Source: Asticcacaulis tiandongensis
GTDB taxonomy: Bacteria; Pseudomonadota; Alphaproteobacteria; Caulobacterales; Caulobacteraceae
Direction of reading: 5' to 3'
Length of the DNA stretch: 64,000 nt
NCBI RefSeq assembly: GCF_006475605.1
Contig: NZ_SSBC01000010.1
Location: 868,001-932,000 of the forward strand
The translations under genes were made by a program, and so were the position numbers. Of the stretch, positions 7,715 to 64,000 are shown piece by piece. Numbering within the stretch: position 1 is the stretch's first letter; every line of letters begins with the position of its first letter. The notes under the pieces are model-generated. The model did not search any database, was not told where the DNA came from, and saw nothing but the letters and a program-made list of their open reading frames with translations.

Positions 7715-9769
7715 ATGCGTAGCCGTCTGCTGAAATCCATCTGTGTGGCCGCCTTGCTGGGGTTAGCGCCCCTGTCGGCGCTGGCCTTAGAAAAGCCCGT
7801 CACATGGACACCGGATAATGGCAACGGCACCTTTACCAATCCCATATTCTACGATGAGTTCTCGGACCCCGACCTGATCCGCGTCGGCGATTATTTCTAT
7901 ATGACCGGCACAACCATGCACACTATGCCAGGCCTGCCGATCCTGCGTTCAAAGGATCTGGTGAACTGGGAATTCCTGACCTATGCCCTCGACCGGCTTG
8001 ATTTGGGCGAGCGTTTTCGCCTCGAAGGGGGCAAGGAAATCTACGGTCAGGGCATCTGGGCCCCCAGCCTGCGTTATCATAACGGCACCTTCTATATCTT
8101 CAGCAATGTCAACGGTGAGAAAACACAGGTCTTTTCCGCCACCGATCCCGCAGGCCCCTGGACGCGCAAGGAAATGAAGCGCTCCATGCACGACCTGTCG
8201 GTACTGTTTGACGATGACGGGAAGATCTACGCCATCTGGGGCTATCAGGATATCTCCATGGTACAACTGACCGATGACCTGACCGATATCGTACCGGGTT
8301 CCGAGCGCGTGATCATTTCCCGCGATGCCGGCATGGGCGAAGGCGTCCATTTCTATAAGTTTGACGGCAAATACTATATCACCAGCGCGTGGTTCGCAGG
8401 CCGCATGCGTATGCCCGCCGCGCGCGCCGATCACCCCGAAGGCCCGTGGGAGGTCAATCAATCCATCAGCATAGATGAGGATTTCGGTCTGGCCGAAGGC
8501 TATCGCCTTGAGGACGCATGGGGCACTGAGGATTCGGCCCCCTTCAAGGTCATCCCGCCCAACCCGGCCCCAAATGGCCGCATGTCGCTGCATCAGGGCG
8601 GTATCGTTGATACCCCTTCTGGTGAATGGTGGGGCTTTTCCATGATGGACTATAATTCGGTTGGCAGACTGCTGGGGATTGCGCCGATCACATGGAAAGA
8701 CGGCTGGCCCTATTTCGGCCTTGAGGGCAATCTGGAGCGCAATCCGCGCACATGGGTCAAACCGAAAACCGCCGATCCGCAGCCGATCACCGTACCGTTT
8801 GAACGCAACGACGATTTTTCGGGCCCAAAACTGAAACCGTTGTGGCAATGGAATCATGTACCGGTTGACGATAAATGGTCACTGAGCGAACGCAGCGGCC
8901 ACTTACGTCTGCACGCCCTGCCCGCCAAAAGCTTCTGGTGGGCAAAGAATACGCTCACACAACGCTCTATCGGGCCGATCTCTCAGCCGACCGTAGCCCT
9001 TGACGCCAGCGGCCTGAAAACAGGAGATGTCGCGGGGCTTGGGCTGCTCAACCGGCCCTATGCGTGGATTGGCGTTGAGAAGGCCGCCACCGGCCTGAAT
9101 ATCGTGCAATATGATCAGCAGACCGGCAAAACCGAGCGCATCAAAACCGACGCCACCCGCCTGTGGTTCCGCGCCGACTGCGATTTCCTGACCGAAAAAG
9201 CCCGCTTCAGCTATTCCATCGACGGTCAGAATTTCACGCCGATTGGCGATGAATTCACTATGGTTTTCCAACTGAAAACCTTTCAGGGCGTGCGCTACAG
9301 CCTGTTCAATTACAACACCACCAGCGTTGAAGGCGGCTATGCGGATTTTGACGAGGTCACTATCCATCAACCCCACCCTCAGGGCCTGATGCGGCCCATT
9401 CCCTATGGTCAGTCAGTCACCTTCACCGGTTTCAACCAAAACACCGGCCTGTCGGTTACGGACGGCAAACTGTCCGACGGCACGCCCACAGCTTTTGAGG
9501 TTATCGATCTGGGCCTTGGCCGTGTGGCGCTGAAATCTGGCGACCATTACCTGAGCGTCAATACCGACGCCTCCGTTACGCTTAAAACCGGTGAGCCGTC
9601 CACATCCGAAAGCTTCCAGTGGATTGAAACGCCCTATGGCGAACTGGTGCTCATGTCGCTTGTCAACCACCGCTTCTTACGCATTGATCCAACAACGAAA
9701 AAAATCACTGCCGATAGCCCCGGCCCGCAATCAGATGCTCAGGACGGCGTACGCTTTATCTGGAAATAA
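7715..9769 (+). CDS. Secreted glycoside hydrolase family 43 enzyme
   Basis: 684 residues. A signal peptide (about 1-25, ending LSALALEKP) is followed by a GH43 five-bladed propeller to about residue 330. The catalytic triad is visible: base Asp in SDPDLIR, pKa-modulating Asp in HDLSVLFD and acid Glu in GMGEGVHF. A beta-sandwich like the one common in GH43 xylosidases follows (about 360-560), and a further C-terminal domain reaches 684. Known activities are beta-xylosidase and alpha-L-arabinofuranosidase; the exact substrate is not determinable. GGGAGA precedes the ATG at good spacing. It appears monocistronic. Confidence 0.9.
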   Translation: MRSRLLKSICVAALLGLAPLSALALEKPVTWTPDNGNGTFTNPIFYDEFSDPDLIRVGDYFYMTGTTMHTMPGLPILRSKDLVNWEFLTYALDRLDLGERFRLEGGKEIYGQGIWAPSLRYHNGTFYIFSNVNGEKTQVFSATDPAGPWTRKEMKRSMHDLSVLFDDDGKIYAIWGYQDISMVQLTDDLTDIVPGSERVIISRDAGMGEGVHFYKFDGKYYITSAWFAGRMRMPAARADHPEGPWEVNQSISIDEDFGLAEGYRLEDAWGTEDSAPFKVIPPNPAPNGRMSLHQGGIVDTPSGEWWGFSMMDYNSVGRLLGIAPITWKDGWPYFGLEGNLERNPRTWVKPKTADPQPITVPFERNDDFSGPKLKPLWQWNHVPVDDKWSLSERSGHLRLHALPAKSFWWAKNTLTQRSIGPISQPTVALDASGLKTGDVAGLGLLNRPYAWIGVEKAATGLNIVQYDQQTGKTERIKTDATRLWFRADCDFLTEKARFSYSIDGQNFTPIGDEFTMVFQLKTFQGVRYSLFNYNTTSVEGGYADFDEVTIHQPHPQGLMRPIPYGQSVTFTGFNQNTGLSVTDGKLSDGTPTAFEVIDLGLGRVALKSGDHYLSVNTDASVTLKTGEPSTSESFQWIETPYGELVLMSLVNHRFLRIDPTTKKITADSPGPQSDAQDGVRFIWK

Positions 9770-11842: not shown

Positions 11843-12649
11843 ATGTTGCGCAAACTTCTTCTGGCCGCCGCCCTTATAACCGCGCCCCTTATGGCCTCAA
11901 ATGCCGCCGCCGAACCGCTCAAGCCCATCCGCGTCATTCTGGTGGGCGATTCGACCATGACCGAACGGGCTGGCTACGGCACCGGCTTCTGCGCGCAGTT
12001 CAAACCCGAGGTTACCTGCATCAATAAGGCGCGCGGTGGCCGCTCCTCCAAATCCTACCGCGTCGAAGGCCTGTGGGACGAAGTCCTGACGCTCATCAAT
12101 GACAAGGGCAATTTCGCTGAGACCTATGTGCTGATTCAGTTCGGCCATAATGACGGCTCACACCGTCCTGAACGCCGCACCGATATCCGCACCGAATTTC
12201 CGGTGAATATCCGCAACTACACGGTGGATGTGAAAAAAGCCGGTGCCACCCCTGTGCTGGTCACCCCCCTCACCCAGCGTCATTTCAAGAACTTCAAACT
12301 GCAAAACGACCTTTTGCCGTGGGCGCAACTGACGCGTCTGATTGCCCGCACCTCAGATGTTACCCTGATCGACCTCTATGCCGAAGGTCAGGCCAAAGTG
12401 CAGGAAATGGGCATCGCGAAATCACTTGAACTCGGCGGCGGGCCTGTTCCTGAAAACGTCTATGAAGGCATCACCACCGGCACGACCGTACCCGCCATCT
12501 TCACCGATGCCTCGCAACAGGCCGACAACAGCCGTCAGGGCTTTGACTACACCCACACCGGCCCCGAAGGCTCAAAATATTTCGGCAAGATGGTGGTCGA
12601 TCTGTGGGTCAAGGCTGATCCCGCCATCGCCCCATATGTGAAAAACTAA
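11843..12649 (+). CDS. Rhamnogalacturonan acetylesterase-like SGNH hydrolase (CE12 type)
   Basis: 268 residues with a signal peptide (about 1-23). SGNH blocks are present: GDSTMTE holds the nucleophile serine, RGGRSSKS the glycine, FGHNDGS the asparagine and DYTHTGPEG the Asp/His pair at the C-terminus. This pattern is that of CE12 rhamnogalacturonan acetylesterases, which remove acetyl groups from pectin in the periplasm or outside the cell. Two direct repeats upstream suggest regulated expression. The activity assignment is from family resemblance. Confidence 0.87.
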   Translation: MLRKLLLAAALITAPLMASNAAAEPLKPIRVILVGDSTMTERAGYGTGFCAQFKPEVTCINKARGGRSSKSYRVEGLWDEVLTLINDKGNFAETYVLIQFGHNDGSHRPERRTDIRTEFPVNIRNYTVDVKKAGATPVLVTPLTQRHFKNFKLQNDLLPWAQLTRLIARTSDVTLIDLYAEGQAKVQEMGIAKSLELGGGPVPENVYEGITTGTTVPAIFTDASQQADNSRQGFDYTHTGPEGSKYFGKMVVDLWVKADPAIAPYVKN

Positions 12650-13500: not shown

Positions 13501-14256
13501 ATGACCTTACGTAGCCTGCTAACGGCATTAGCCGCTCTTCCGCTTGTTGCCACTGCACCGGTACTGGCGGACACCCTCAAAACCGATTGTCCGCCTGAGG
13601 CTTTGGGCACGGCCCGTGTTCTGACACTCGGTCCCGAAGCCGGTCAGGCCTATGGCTCGGTACAGCATCCACGCCTGCCGCTGAAACCTCACGAAGTCGT
13701 CCTGACCTTCGATGACGGCCCGCGCCCTGACACCACCCCCGAAGTTCTCAACGCCCTTAAGGCCGAATGCGTGAAGGCCACCTTCTTCATGACCGGTGAC
13801 GCGGTCACGCAATATCCCGATCTGGCGCGTCTGGTGGTGTCCGATGGCCATACGGCGGGAATGCACAGCTATAAGCACGACAATATGACGGCGCTTTCCC
13901 CTGAGGCGCAAAAGGAAGACCTCAAGACAACGCAAGCCGCACTCAAAGCCACCCTTGGCGCTGATGCGGCCCCCTTTTACCGCTTCCCTTATCTGGGTCA
14001 GACCGAACATCTGCTGGCCGAAGCCAAGGCTCAGGGCATCACGGTTTTTTCCATTGATGCCGCCGCCAATGACTGGGAAGCCGGTGAAACCGCCGTGTCT
14101 GTGACCAATCGCCTGATGAACAATCTGGCGACGTCAAAGGGCGGCATTATCCTGCTGCACGACTGGCAGCCGGTGACCGCTGAAGCCATGCCGATGATCC
14201 TCAAGGCCCTCAAGGATCAGGGCTATAAGGTCGTGCATGTGAACTGGACGCGATAG
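13501..14256 (+). CDS. NodB-type polysaccharide deacetylase, secreted
   Basis: 251 residues with a signal peptide (about 1-23). NodB motifs are in order: TFDDGP (catalytic base and metal Asp), HSYKH (two metal histidines), RFPYLG (motif 3) and IILLHDW (motif 5). This supports a carbohydrate esterase 4 enzyme that removes N- or O-acetyl groups from chitin-like polymers, peptidoglycan or xylan. The ATG is at 13501; no strong Shine-Dalgarno is apparent. The partner gene downstream is convergent and unrelated. Confidence 0.9.
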   Translation: MTLRSLLTALAALPLVATAPVLADTLKTDCPPEALGTARVLTLGPEAGQAYGSVQHPRLPLKPHEVVLTFDDGPRPDTTPEVLNALKAECVKATFFMTGDAVTQYPDLARLVVSDGHTAGMHSYKHDNMTALSPEAQKEDLKTTQAALKATLGADAAPFYRFPYLGQTEHLLAEAKAQGITVFSIDAAANDWEAGETAVSVTNRLMNNLATSKGGIILLHDWQPVTAEAMPMILKALKDQGYKVVHVNWTR

Positions 14257-14262
14257 AAGGGG

Positions 14263-14955
14263 TTAAACCTCGCACACCCCGTCCTCACAGACCGGCCCAT
14301 CACCCGCAGAACCGCCTGCTGAAGCACCGGCATCTTTCCACGCCGCCTCAAGCGCCTGTGTAAACACCTCCGGCGGCTGGGCACCTGACACAGCGTAGCG
14401 CCCCCCAAAGACGAAGTGTGGCACACCTCTGGCTCCCGCAAGGTTCGCACCGCGCTGATCATCTTCGACCTCAGACGTCAGTTCCGTACCAGCCAGAAAC
14501 GCCCGCACGGCCTCGGCCTCAAGGCCGGCTTCAACCGCCAGCCGGACAAGCACCTCATCGTCAAACACCGATAGGCCTTCGGTGAAATAGGCGCGATAAA
14601 GCCGCTCAAGCAAAACCGCGCCCTTATCACCCGCATAGCGAATAAGCCGGTGCGCCTTAAGGCTGTCGCCGGACAGAGTGTTATCCAGATGATACTCAAG
14701 CCCGACACTGGCCGCCATGCCCTCGACGCGGCGCTGATTGTTCACCGCCTGCTCGGCCGTCAGTCCGTATTTCTGCTGCAACATCACGCCGGTTGGCACC
14801 ACCGGCTGATCCGGCGACAGGCGAAACGCCCGATGACGTACCTCGACCTGATCCTTATGCGGAAAAGCCTCCAGCGCCCTCTCAAACTGACGCTTACCGA
14901 TCCAGCAGAAGGGGCAAATGATATCCGACCAGATATCGACAACTATAGCGGACAT
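14263..14955 (-). CDS. DsbA-family oxidoreductase (FrnE-like)
   Basis: 230 residues without a signal peptide, hence cytosolic. The CPFCWIG motif near residues 14-20 is the thioredoxin-like CxxC active site of the FrnE/2-hydroxychromene isomerase-like DsbA group. GVPHFVFGGRYAVSGAQPPE near the end includes the cis-proline loop. The ATG at 14955 is chosen because GAGGTAAGT precedes it; an upstream in-frame extension would overlap the GH2 gene. The C-terminus ends CEDGVCEV, with two extra cysteines. It lies 28 bases after the GH2 gene. Confidence 0.88.
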   Translation of the reverse strand: MSAIVVDIWSDIICPFCWIGKRQFERALEAFPHKDQVEVRHRAFRLSPDQPVVPTGVMLQQKYGLTAEQAVNNQRRVEGMAASVGLEYHLDNTLSGDSLKAHRLIRYAGDKGAVLLERLYRAYFTEGLSVFDDEVLVRLAVEAGLEAEAVRAFLAGTELTSEVEDDQRGANLAGARGVPHFVFGGRYAVSGAQPPEVFTQALEAAWKDAGASAGGSAGDGPVCEDGVCEV

Positions 14956-14983
14956 ACTTACCTCACAGGCAGATTGAAAACCT

Positions 14984-16963
14984 TTACGGCAATATGGGTA
15001 CGGCGGGTCTGACTGTCCACCTGACCTCATCAAGATGCGCACCACTTTCGGCCCGCACCGTATTGGTGCCCATCGCCAGACTGACATTGCTAAAAGTTGC
15101 GACCCCGCCCTGAACATCCTGAGTGCCGACAACGACACCATTGACCGTCAATGTCACCGAAGGCTGATTGCTGTAGATTTTCACCTGTGTCACCCGACCG
15201 GTACGCTCATGGAACCGCCGGTTGGCCACATAGACAAATGGCTGCGCCGACCACTGCGCCTTATAGTACCAGAAGGCATCCTTTTTCACCTTACGGTCAT
15301 AGGTGATCAGGCCGCTATTATCCATGCCCGTCTGATCGCCGTCATTACGACCTTCCGAAGCCGAATCAAAGACTTGCCAGACAAAGCTCGCCCACACCGC
15401 AGGCCGTGCCCGCAAATGCGCCCAGGCCATTTCATGATAAGCCGCCTGAAATGCCTCAGGGTGCCAGCCTGAGACCGGATCAATCCGCGTCACGGCTTCT
15501 GACTGATGGCGCACACTGCCGCCGGTGCCATAGCCCAGGATAGCCATCGGATAACCGGCATGGGCCGCATGAAAGGCATCAATCACCCCGCTTAAGGTGG
15601 CCGCCTCATTAACCGAAGCTTTCGGTTCAAAATAGATCCCTGCAGGTTTCCCCGCAGCGGTCAGCAACAGGGCCGGATTGTCCGTCCCGACCGCACTGAG
15701 CGTCAGGCGCGACGGATCTTCGGACGCGACAATGGCAGCATCGGTCGCCGCCCTTGTCTCCCACGCTACAATGCTCGGATGGTTGATATTCTGGCGCACC
15801 AGTTCGCGTAGCTGCTGACCAGTATTGGCATGAAAGGCCGCCGTCAGTTCCCCGCGCTTACCTTCGGGTAAGCCCGTGACCACCAATATGCCGCGCCGGT
15901 CCGCCTCATGATAAACCGCCTGAGACGCGGCAAATGGCGCTATCCGCACCGCCGTCACCCCCATATCTTCCAGCAGATCGAAATCCTCAGCAATATCACT
16001 TTCGCTGACCGCCTGCCCCTTGCCTGCACGCCCCGTATTGAGGTTTACGCCCACCACCCGATAGGGCTGACCATTCAGCAAAAAGCGATGCTGGGCATCG
16101 ATCTGCACCTGACGGATACCAAAATGGGTAACGATGCGTTCCTGGGTTTCGTTGCCGTCGGAAATCTCTGTCACCGCGGCATATAGATAGGGGTCGTTGC
16201 GTCCGTTCCACAGCTTTGGCTGAACCATACGCCCGGCCAGCGCCAGCGTCTGCGCCTCGCCCCCTTTGAGCGTCACATTGCGCGTCATCTGCATGACCAT
16301 CATACCTTCGCGTGAAAAGATACGCGTATTAACGGTCATCTTGACGCTGCGCGCCCGTTGATTGCGCAAGGCGACATTGACCTTAAGATCAGCATGGTTG
16401 TTAAGCGTGAGGGCGCTCGTCACCGCCACACCGTTGCCCCCGTGATCGAGCCAGTCAATGCCGACATCGCGCGCCTGAATGAGCGACACACCGCGATGCA
16501 GTCCCCCCTCTACCGTCGCCTCACCGCCAAAGGGCGCTATATGCGCGCGCGCCGAATTATCGACCTTCACGGCAATCACATTGCGCCCGGCCATGAGAAA
16601 TTTCGTAATATCATAGCGAAAGGCCGTGTAACCGCCTTCGTGCTTTCCGACTGAGTGTCCGTTAATATAGACATCCGCCACCAGCGCCGCCCCGTCAAAT
16701 TGCAGATAGACCCGGTCACCCCGCGCCACCGCCTTCAGATCAAGCGCTTTGCGATACCAGCCGACCCCGCGATAGCTATTGAAACTGTGCGGTAAGGTCG
16801 CCTTTATCCACGCCCTGTCATCAAACTCAGGCGCAGCGGCCTCAGCTACATCCTCAGACATAAAACGCCAGTCGGCATTGATTTCGCTCTGGGAAAAGGC
16901 TCCGGCAGAGACCGGTACACACAGACACAGCATCGCCATTATCATCTTAAGAACTCTCAGCAT
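14984..16963 (-). CDS. GH2-family protein with substituted catalytic glutamates (possible pseudoenzyme)
   Basis: 659 residues, signal peptide 1-22. GH2 sugar-binding domain (LPHSFNSYRGVGWYRK, DVYINGHSVGKHEGGY) at about 30-180, immunoglobulin-like domain to about 290, TIM barrel from about 300 and a C-terminal sandwich. The fold is intact, but where the family has WSLGNE the protein reads WETRAA (about residues 400-405). Where it has the nucleophile in SEYGAGGS it reads LGYGTGGS (about 475). Both catalytic glutamates are therefore replaced. It may bind a beta-galactoside or mannoside without hydrolysing it. Its frame is open throughout, so it is not a decayed gene. Confidence 0.85.
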   Translation of the reverse strand: MLRVLKMIMAMLCLCVPVSAGAFSQSEINADWRFMSEDVAEAAAPEFDDRAWIKATLPHSFNSYRGVGWYRKALDLKAVARGDRVYLQFDGAALVADVYINGHSVGKHEGGYTAFRYDITKFLMAGRNVIAVKVDNSARAHIAPFGGEATVEGGLHRGVSLIQARDVGIDWLDHGGNGVAVTSALTLNNHADLKVNVALRNQRARSVKMTVNTRIFSREGMMVMQMTRNVTLKGGEAQTLALAGRMVQPKLWNGRNDPYLYAAVTEISDGNETQERIVTHFGIRQVQIDAQHRFLLNGQPYRVVGVNLNTGRAGKGQAVSESDIAEDFDLLEDMGVTAVRIAPFAASQAVYHEADRRGILVVTGLPEGKRGELTAAFHANTGQQLRELVRQNINHPSIVAWETRAATDAAIVASEDPSRLTLSAVGTDNPALLLTAAGKPAGIYFEPKASVNEAATLSGVIDAFHAAHAGYPMAILGYGTGGSVRHQSEAVTRIDPVSGWHPEAFQAAYHEMAWAHLRARPAVWASFVWQVFDSASEGRNDGDQTGMDNSGLITYDRKVKKDAFWYYKAQWSAQPFVYVANRRFHERTGRVTQVKIYSNQPSVTLTVNGVVVGTQDVQGGVATFSNVSLAMGTNTVRAESGAHLDEVRWTVRPAVPILP

Positions 16964-17174: not shown

Positions 17175-17588
17175 ATGTCTTCGGCACCGGCCCCCCACGG
17201 AAAAGTCAAACATAACCATATCGCCATCCTCGATCTGAGCGCGATTGGCTTATCCGGCCTGTGTCTGGCGCATTGTCTGCTCTTGCCTGCGGCCTTTGCA
17301 GCCCTACCCCTGATGGGTCAGGCCACCGATAATCATCTGGTCCACCAGATTCTGGTTCTGATCGCCGCGCCGGTCAGCCTGTGGGCCTTAAGTCGTTCCG
17401 GCGGCTGGAAAAAACCGCTGGTCGTCGGTCTGGCACTTATCGGTTTCGGCTTCCTGATCGCCGGTGCCTATATACACGCCCTCGAAGCCCACGAAACCCT
17501 GCTGACGATTACGGGCGCGCTGATTATCGCCAGCGCCCACTTCCTTAACTGGCGTCGCCCTTCTGGTATTGCAACAAAAGCCTTATAA
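17175..17588 (+). CDS. MerC-domain inner-membrane protein
   Basis: 137 residues with four predicted membrane helices. The first carries GLSGLCLAHCLLLP, the cysteine pair typical of MerC mercury-uptake proteins. A histidine-rich start (APHGKVKHNHIA) may bind metal. No other mer genes are nearby, so a role in mercury resistance is doubtful. With a Zur-like box upstream, zinc transport or zinc-stress function is more plausible; this is an inference. Confidence 0.85.
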   Translation: MSSAPAPHGKVKHNHIAILDLSAIGLSGLCLAHCLLLPAAFAALPLMGQATDNHLVHQILVLIAAPVSLWALSRSGGWKKPLVVGLALIGFGFLIAGAYIHALEAHETLLTITGALIIASAHFLNWRRPSGIATKAL

Positions 17589-18691: not shown

Positions 18692-19126
18692 TTGCACTAT
18701 ATACAGGTTTTACGGCCCTTCCGAAGCACGTCCAGTTTGGGGGATGTTCCGATCAGCTACCTTTTAACCCTTGCCTCTACACTAATGCTTGCCGCAGCTC
18801 CCTTGCCAGACCTTAAGGGCGCTGAAGCCATAAGATGTCGCGCGGCCGCCGAAGCTCTGCGCGATCAGGCCTATGACGAAATGCGCCTGCTGGTCATACG
18901 GGTTGAGCGCTCGCCCAACCTGTCGCTAAAGGCCCTAACCGACGTTGAAAGCGAAATCCTGCGCCGTGAAGACGAGATCGTTAAGCTTGAGACACAGGCA
19001 GAAAAATTCGCCTTCGCCCCGGAACCTGCCACTTCTGTACGCATCGCCCATAAGGAAACCGAGCCTGTCAAACTCAGACCACAGGTTGCCCAATGCGTGG
19101 AACGCCTCCCCACCCCCAAACCCTGA
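18692..19126 (+). CDS. Hypothetical secreted protein with coiled-coil segment
   Basis: Up to 144 residues. The start is uncertain: the longest reading begins with TTG at 18692, and another TTG at 18737 would place the hydrophobic segment ISYLLTLASTLMLAAA near the N-terminus as a signal peptide. The mature part has two cysteines and a heptad-like helix (LTDVESEILRREDEIVKLE). No known family is recognised. It lies between Dabb and the glycosyltransferase gene, on the same strand. Confidence 0.55.
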   Translation: MHYIQVLRPFRSTSSLGDVPISYLLTLASTLMLAAAPLPDLKGAEAIRCRAAAEALRDQAYDEMRLLVIRVERSPNLSLKALTDVESEILRREDEIVKLETQAEKFAFAPEPATSVRIAHKETEPVKLRPQVAQCVERLPTPKP

Positions 19127-62860: not shown

Positions 62861-64000
62861 CTACAACTTCTTAGGCGTAAGGCGCACCATGATCACCCCA
62901 TGCGAGGCCACCGTACCGCCATAGCTTCCGGCGACATTCCTTGTCACCTTCTTCGACCACAGGTCTTTCACCTCGGCCTTCAGGCCCGCGGGCAGATTAA
63001 GCTGTTCCCACGTCACGCGCATGTCTTTTGCTTCGGCTGAACGGTTGAACAACACCACCGCATAGTCACCGCCCTTTAACGGACGCGCCCATATCTCCAG
63101 ATCGCCGTCCTTGTGGATACGACGGCCCTGAACCCCCAGCACATCCTGATCAACGGCAATGACGTCCTTATTGGTCAGGATACGCAGCGTGTCGGCATCC
63201 ATATTGGCCATGTCATTACCGGCAATCAGCGGCGCGGCCAGAATGGCCCACAGACTGAAATGCGATTCATATTCGGTGACCGTCATGCCGCCATTGCCGA
63301 CCTCAAGCATGTCAGGGTCATTCCAGCGATTCGGGCCGGAATAGCGCCACAGTTCGACCTGCTTATCGAGGATATTGGTCATGCCGATCGAATGGCCCTG
63401 CTGCCCTTCCCAGGCATCAAAGATATCACCGGTCGTGCGCCACATATGTCCCGCCTTATGCGCCCAGGCGGACGGGTTGTTGTCACCCCACTCACAGATA
63501 CTCAGCACAATGTCCCGTCCCGACGCCCTCAGCGCCTTGGCCATGATCGTATAGGCCGCCTCGGCATTGCGCGTGCCGGTATAGCACCAGTCATATTTCA
63601 GATAATCGACGCCCCATTCGGCATATTGCCGCGCATCCTGAAACTCATAACCCGCACTGCCCGGACGACCGGCGCAGGTCAGGACACCGGCATCGGAATA
63701 AAGCCCGAACTTCAGCCCCTTTGAATGCACATAATCGACCAGCGACTTGATCCCCGAAGGGAAACGCACCGGATCGGCCTGAATGTTGCCCTTTTCATCA
63801 CGATGGCTCTGCCAGCAATCGTCAATGACAATATACTGATAACCGGCGTCCTTCAGTCCCGAAGAAGCCATGGCATCAGCCTGCTTGCGGATCAGTTCCT
63901 CGCTGATATCGCATTTATATTTGTTCCATGAATTCCAGCCCATCGGCGGCGCCGATGCCAGATCGGGCTTCGGGGCCTCAAGCTTCAGGCTTTCATGCGC
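62861..64000 (-). CDS. Alpha-galactosidase, GH27 (5' end beyond the window)
   Basis: 380 codons are visible and the start is off the right edge; the reading frame is open to position 64000, with about 19 residues before PPMGWNSWNK. GH27 motifs: nucleophile Asp in YLKYDWCYTG and acid/base Asp in RWNDPDML, plus a C-terminal antiparallel beta-domain. It would remove terminal alpha-1,6-galactose from galactomannan or raffinose-type sugars. The missing start should encode a signal peptide. Confidence 0.93.
   Translation of the reverse strand, partial: AHESLKLEAPKPDLASAPPMGWNSWNKYKCDISEELIRKQADAMASSGLKDAGYQYIVIDDCWQSHRDEKGNIQADPVRFPSGIKSLVDYVHSKGLKFGLYSDAGVLTCAGRPGSAGYEFQDARQYAEWGVDYLKYDWCYTGTRNAEAAYTIMAKALRASGRDIVLSICEWGDNNPSAWAHKAGHMWRTTGDIFDAWEGQQGHSIGMTNILDKQVELWRYSGPNRWNDPDMLEVGNGGMTVTEYESHFSLWAILAAPLIAGNDMANMDADTLRILTNKDVIAVDQDVLGVQGRRIHKDGDLEIWARPLKGGDYAVVLFNRSAEAKDMRVTWEQLNLPAGLKAEVKDLWSKKVTRNVAGSYGGTVASHGVIMVRLTPKKL

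Follow-up and report, generated by a model that had tools for sequence, protein, structure and literature searches.

The window analyzed here is a 64,000-nucleotide stretch of the Asticcacaulis tiandongensis genome (3.2 Mb, completeness 99.98). On its reverse strand lies a GH2-like gene whose reading frame is real: as the original prediction had it, the frame is open over 1.98 kb, from ATG to TAA, and encodes 659 amino acids. The gene is flanked by a DSBA-family (FrnE-like) gene and a divergently oriented MerC-family gene (Table 1). Also near it are a gene for a GH43 protein with a GH43_C2 domain (7715–9769) and a GDSL hydrolase gene (11843–12649). An alpha-galactosidase-like ORF, recognized by eye, is located at the window end (62861–63943).

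Table 1. The GH2-like gene, its parts and its neighbors in the window. Invariant columns are those unchanged across the 13 orthologues.
Feature	Position	Strand	Remark
GH2 beta-glucuronidase-like protein without catalytic site	14984..16963	-	659 aa + stop
Signal-peptide-like N-terminus, residues 1–22	16898..16963	-	Judged by eye; helix 2–13 in the predicted model
Jelly-roll (Glyco_hydro_2_N), residues 24–165	16469..16894	-	51/64 orthologue-invariant columns kept
Ig-like domain (Glyco_hydro_2), residues 166–289	16097..16468	-	36/47 orthologue-invariant columns kept
TIM barrel, residues 290–575	15239..16096	-	110/169 orthologue-invariant columns kept
C-terminal domain (DUF4982 match), residues 576–659	14987..15238	-	25/30 orthologue-invariant columns kept
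Former acid/base site, residues 398–416	15716..15772	-	Beta-4, W401-E402, 13-residue loop/helix deletion
Diverged beta-5 to beta-6, residues 421–450	15614..15703	-	YAHCC and NRYFGWY lost, low model confidence
Former nucleophile, Gly477 (GGC)	15533..15535	-	Glu in relatives
N-x-K glucuronate-recognition motif	15314..15322	-	Changed to D548-N549-S550
His343Pro, His346Ala, Glu364Gly	15872..15937	-	Pocket-motif residues conserved in relatives
DSBA-family (FrnE-like) gene	14263..14955	-	28 nt downstream; adjoins in 7/13 relatives' loci
MerC-family gene, divergent neighbor	17175..17588	+	Same place, direct or one gene off, in 13/13 loci

By descent and fold the protein belongs to GH2: the jelly-roll, Ig-like and TIM-barrel domains follow each other in this order with significant profile matches. 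It is matched by the Pfam profiles Glyco_hydro_2_N, Glyco_hydro_2, Glyco_hydro_2_C and DUF4982. The Glyco_hydro_2_C (barrel) profile was matched at model positions 6–131 of 302 only, which was the first sign that the trouble lies in the barrel. The top NCBIfam model is NF050095, "beta-glucuronidase LacZ4", aligned over residues 23–646 to model positions 14–660 of 666. LacZ4 is the best family for the protein, yet the score of 463.5 bits, obtained with the window protein alone, is under the family's own equivalog cut-off of 950. Judged by eye from its N-terminus, the protein is probably secreted.

The AlphaFold2 model has a mean pLDDT of 88.9 and pTM of 0.91, the input alignment of the predictor consisting of intact relatives and thus possibly favoring an intact fold. 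Its agreement with GH2 glucuronidases extends over almost all of the protein. The top Foldseek match (TM-score 0.88) is the beta-glucuronidase mL1 from Tannerella forsythia (PDB 8dhe), which is also the top PDB sequence match (E 4.5e-96). BfGUS from Bacteroides fragilis (PDB 5z1a, 3cmg) likewise shares the whole-length fold; for 5z1a, VIA-align gives Z 45.4 and rmsd 1.9 A over 616 residues at 31% identity. Both enzymes retain WGLFNE, SEYGAG and GINDKG, whereas the window protein has lost all three motifs. Residues 421–450, from beta-5 to beta-6, do not resemble the family, and their mean pLDDT is 52–62 in blocks of ten. By prediction the protein thus retains its general fold, with a part of the barrel uncertain, so that the claim of intact GH2 landmarks and domain order stands for the order of domains but not for this stretch.

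The catalytic site was compared with those of the orthologues. The 12 orthologues with an open frame have W-G-[IL]-G-N-E at the acid/base position, followed by helix alpha-4, and E-Y-G-A-G at the nucleophile. The window protein has L-G477-Y-G instead of E-Y-G, with the codon GGC, and the first Glu downstream of G477 is residue 489; the alignment thus confirms the replacement of S-E-Y-G by L-G-Y-G noticed earlier. At the acid/base position it reads W401-E402-T-R-A-A. The motif is gone, as had been proposed, but through a deletion of 13 residues after the beta-4 Trp401 and not through substitution.

The placement of this gap varies by alignment, and either Ala406 or E402 falls under the catalytic Glu. 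In the AlphaFold2 models strand beta-4 comprises residues 398–403 of the window protein and 413–420 of the A. aquaticus orthologue, where the catalytic Glu421 comes next. Since beta-4 has its Trp at the fourth place in either protein, E402 corresponds in register to Gly417, and Glu421 lies four residues further on. This register argument, which uses no coordinates, leads us to consider E402 misplaced, too deep in beta-4. E402 is the only nearby glutamate; a shifted glutamate had been named as an observation that would speak against the loss, and some alignments set E402 under the acid/base Glu, but it appears to be four residues off register.

In one alignment both catalytic glutamates are kept in all 62 other proteins. 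In a wider alignment of 113 rows, the 112 related rows of which contain 97 distinct ones, the acid/base Glu is present in 112/112 and the nucleophile in 111/112, the one exception coming from a truncated contig. Hence the claim of a GH2 protein lacking both catalytic glutamates holds: neither Glu is found in the window protein, whereas they are present in 112/112 and 111/111 readable relatives, respectively. Given this conservation, the loss appears to exceed what chance would give. Having originated from an enzyme family whose catalytic residues it no longer has, the protein is in this sense a pseudoenzyme, the activity of the orthologues being judged from their motifs. Hydrolysis of glucuronides by it seems very unlikely from the residues present.

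Two trivial causes were considered. Compensating frameshifts do not explain the odd region from beta-4 to beta-6: the other two forward frames contain no orthologue-like peptide at codons 331–500, and no out-of-frame match for this region was found among the matches listed in a tblastn search with one orthologue. Sequencing error is unlikely, as the dispersed codon changes and in-frame gaps are many.

The sugar-recognition pocket was assigned through the family motifs GD[FY], R-x-x-H-Y, N-E, NRYxGWY, FVW and N-x-K, which we take to correspond to the pocket residues of beta-glucuronidases (GUS) in place of a direct alignment with E. coli GUS. At these motifs the window protein carries H343P, D148E, N548D, K550S, N438G, Y440P and W443I, and the Asn preceding the acid/base Glu is deleted. 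The further conserved residues H346 and E364 are lost as well (H346A, E364G). W529 is retained, and there is a Tyr at 444. The N-x-K motif reads D-N-S in the window protein vs N and K in 111/111 readable relatives. In the available part of the E. coli GUS description, N412, H330, D163 and W549 contact the sugar hydroxyls, N566 and K568 hold the carboxylate, and Y468, Y469 and Y472 form a tyrosine loop (PMC10535898); the corresponding part for the Bifidobacterium dentium complex names D179, H413, N489, W619, N636 and K638 (PMC6219552). As read from the sequence, the loss is broader than two glutamates and includes N-x-K, two His, one more Glu and the NRYxGW loop.

These observations bear on the proposal that the protein binds or senses sugar. 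At the corresponding motifs, the residues that hold glucuronate in E. coli GUS have been replaced or are missing, which weakens this proposal for the old site, where sugar binding seems unlikely. Putative sugar binding through the beta-sandwich domains is possible, and the proposal survives in that form.

A positional orthologue was found in 13 of 24 other Asticcacaulis genomes, with an open frame in 12 and a frameshift in one. Presence was defined by a line of 50% identity; the 13 orthologues are 50–53% identical to the window protein, and the best listed relative in each of the other 11 genomes is at most 43% identical. The MerC gene is upstream in 13/13 loci, directly in two and with a polysaccharide deacetylase gene in between in 11. 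In the window the deacetylase gene is located beyond the DSBA gene (13501–14256), and its position is a local rearrangement. A Dabb gene comes next in 12 of the 13 loci; in the 13th the contig ends earlier. In the stretch examined at the six loci where the DSBA gene does not adjoin, no DSBA/FrnE-like gene was found. The distance from the GH2 stop to the DSBA start (14955–14984) is 28 nt; in the seven relatives it is approximately 120–470 nt between the ends of tblastn matches, the true gaps being somewhat smaller. A small protein encoded at a conserved position (18692–19126) is 31–37% identical to the seven relatives found, which are at least 44% identical to each other.

We regard the GH2-like gene of the window as the positional orthologue, still at the ancestral place on the chromosome. 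Since the neighbors are conserved, a lateral copy or a paralogue is not favored. When outgroups were included, one tree placed the GH2 sequence of the window beside them with support 48; at face value this contradicts the orthologue reading, and we take it to be long-branch behavior. The orthologue of one genome (G068; L024 1495–3547, L061 8673–10707) carries a frameshift near codon 517 that splits the gene, so at least two hits have occurred at the GH2 locus.

Comparison of the orthologues for the same substitutions, suggested originally as a check, revealed the catalytic-site loss in none of the 24 other genomes of the genus. The first GTDB scan confirmed zero relatives. In the second scan, where the best 80 of 442 loci were aligned, the nearest one was 50% identical (52% over the alignment), and no closer relative with the same loss was found among them. 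Plasmid records contained no match above 60% identity, the best 20 places having 28–33%.

The same genome encodes a GH2 paralogue (G000:C16:103471–105498; L150 7412–9520) with GLGNE, SEYG and INDKG intact, which looks active by these motifs. It is only 36–38% identical to the window protein and hence is not a recent duplicate. Near the paralogue there is a large secreted-looking protein, beta-helix-like by eye (L150 10212–12230).

Conservation of the window protein was analyzed by domain. Its mean identity to the orthologues is 0.589 in the jelly-roll (between-clade mean 0.625), 0.446 in the Ig-like domain (0.516; the lowest between-clade pair, 0.472, is slightly higher than 0.446) and 0.445 in the C-terminal domain (0.494). 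In the barrel, the respective values are 0.571 vs 0.733 for beta-1 to beta-3, 0.334 vs 0.602 for beta-4 to beta-7, and 0.617 vs 0.809 thereafter. The invariant columns of the barrel are kept in 47/66, 24/52 and 39/51 cases in these three segments. Outside the barrel 112 of 141 are kept, which differs both from beta-4 to beta-7 (Fisher p = 1.5e-5) and from the whole barrel (p = 0.006). Control clades, each scored on the columns invariant in the rest, keep 79–86% in the jelly-roll and Ig-like domains and 78–97% in beta-1 to beta-7; for two of the three, the C-terminal domain provides only two columns.

Selection was assessed with a codon model on the tree of the neighboring genes, the omega values being rough due to synonymous sites near saturation (branch length of 5–12 neutral units). 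The window branch has omega of 0.18 vs the background of 0.067 (2dlnL 7.3), and omega = 1 is rejected for it (2dlnL 33). Three neighboring genes show no significant change of omega (2dlnL 0.0, 2.9 and 0.1). The fit prefers a barrel-specific change to a uniform one (2dlnL 30). For the part outside the barrel the model rejects omega = 1 (2dlnL 36), and omega there, 0.155 vs 0.083, is not significantly raised (2dlnL 3.2, p = 0.07). Thus, the barrel bears most of the degeneration, with no significant acceleration of the outer domains. The lineage itself contributes to the divergence, as by mean similarity in seven neighboring families (GH2 included) A. tiandongensis is farther from the other species than these are from each other. 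The tip length in the protein tree is 0.80 for GH2 (0.67 with outgroups) vs 0.50 for six concatenated neighbors, the data for the latter being gappy (372–1521 residues per taxon).

Taken together, the most probable explanation, which we hold with moderate confidence, is a probably secreted pseudo-glucuronidase: an orthologue at the ancestral locus that has lost both catalysis and glucuronate recognition and is kept for a non-catalytic role. A beta-glucuronidase-like GH2 orthologue would have lost both functions in this lineage, while the jelly-roll, Ig-like and C-terminal domains would have stayed under selection, so that the protein would retain a non-catalytic job. The data favor continued selection on the outer domains, for one genome of the lineage; a single genome does not allow the loss to be dated, or selection that preceded it to be told apart from selection that followed. 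The best-fit omega outside the barrel, higher than the background though not significantly, speaks against retention, as does the mean identity of the Ig-like domain, a little under the lowest between-clade pair.

The job would most likely consist in holding a partner or binding glycans through the outer domains. Most GH2 glucuronidases of this type form oligomers, as far as the available parts of two structural papers describe them (PMC10535898, PMC6219552), and together with the active-looking paralogue this suggests a partner role. More tentatively, the single orthologue at the locus, not a fresh duplicate, may have become a secreted scaffold or partner, for instance in joint oligomers with the paralogue or in anchoring glycans through its outer beta-sandwich domains. 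We do not favor sensing by the former active site.

The main rival is slow decay, which we regard as rather unlikely: after the loss of catalysis the gene would be free of selection today and would not yet have acquired stops or frameshifts. The raised omega of the window branch agrees with this, as do the poorly modeled beta-5/beta-6 stretch, where the fold could be damaged, and the fate of the gene in other genomes: it is absent from 11 of the 24 by the 50% line and frameshifted in one more, hence dispensable in the genus. Under decay all domains should suffer alike, yet the outer ones do not evolve significantly faster. Compared with the 12 full-length orthologues, the window gene has four or five private gaps, no stops and no frameshifts. 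In a neutral simulation of 300 copies that started from an intact orthologue and did not count indels, 42%, 20%, 4.7%, 0.7% and 0% of copies remained stop-free at 0.05, 0.1, 0.2, 0.4 and 0.89 substitutions per codon, respectively; the last value is implied by the barrel excess, by our arithmetic, if the barrel has been neutral after the loss. After a recent loss the open frame would thus be unsurprising, whereas at the three higher values few or no copies remain stop-free even before any indels. The argument against decay made originally from the open frame consequently holds only for a loss that lies further back; it is the barrel-concentrated acceleration, with omega = 1 rejected elsewhere, that supports it.

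It is improbable that the frame is kept open for transcription or translation of the downstream DSBA gene, the protein itself doing little. The GH2–DSBA spacing, shorter here than in the seven relatives, agrees with this dependence, which would account for the missing stops but not for the amino acid conservation of the outer domains. A promoter-like match (9/12) directly before the DSBA gene (15019–14991, reverse strand) points the other way without statistical weight: three such matches in the region vs 1.8 expected prove nothing. The least credible explanation is a hydrolase still working with a displaced carboxylate such as E402 or by another mechanism, for although some alignments set E402 under the acid/base Glu and W529 and Tyr444 are kept, E402 is too deep in beta-4 by register, the nucleophile has no Glu replacement and the substrate-recognition residues are gone too.

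Glycoside-hydrolase pseudoenzymes as such are a known kind. In the available parts of the respective papers, inactive GH28 proteins of leaf beetles affect their pathway and are tied to gene duplication (PMC6549527); these and human heparanase 2 (PMC12406646) are, like the pseudo-glucuronidase proposed here, kept non-catalytic relatives of active glycosidases. They come from animals and other families, whereas the window protein is a bacterial GH2 member, and in contrast to the duplication-linked GH28 proteins it is a changed orthologue at the ancestral locus. A limited search of titles and abstract openings recognized no bacterial GH2 pseudoenzyme, and the word "inactive" is absent from the main text, as available, of a paper on GH2 subfamilies (PMC12243196).

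An annotation by family alone would call the protein a beta-glucuronidase or beta-galactosidase, and its active-site remnant should not be taken for a sugar sensor. Here nature offers a clear example of a large multidomain enzyme whose catalytic and substrate-binding layer is erased and whose outer domains are held, and therefore the protein could reveal the role that these domains have of their own.
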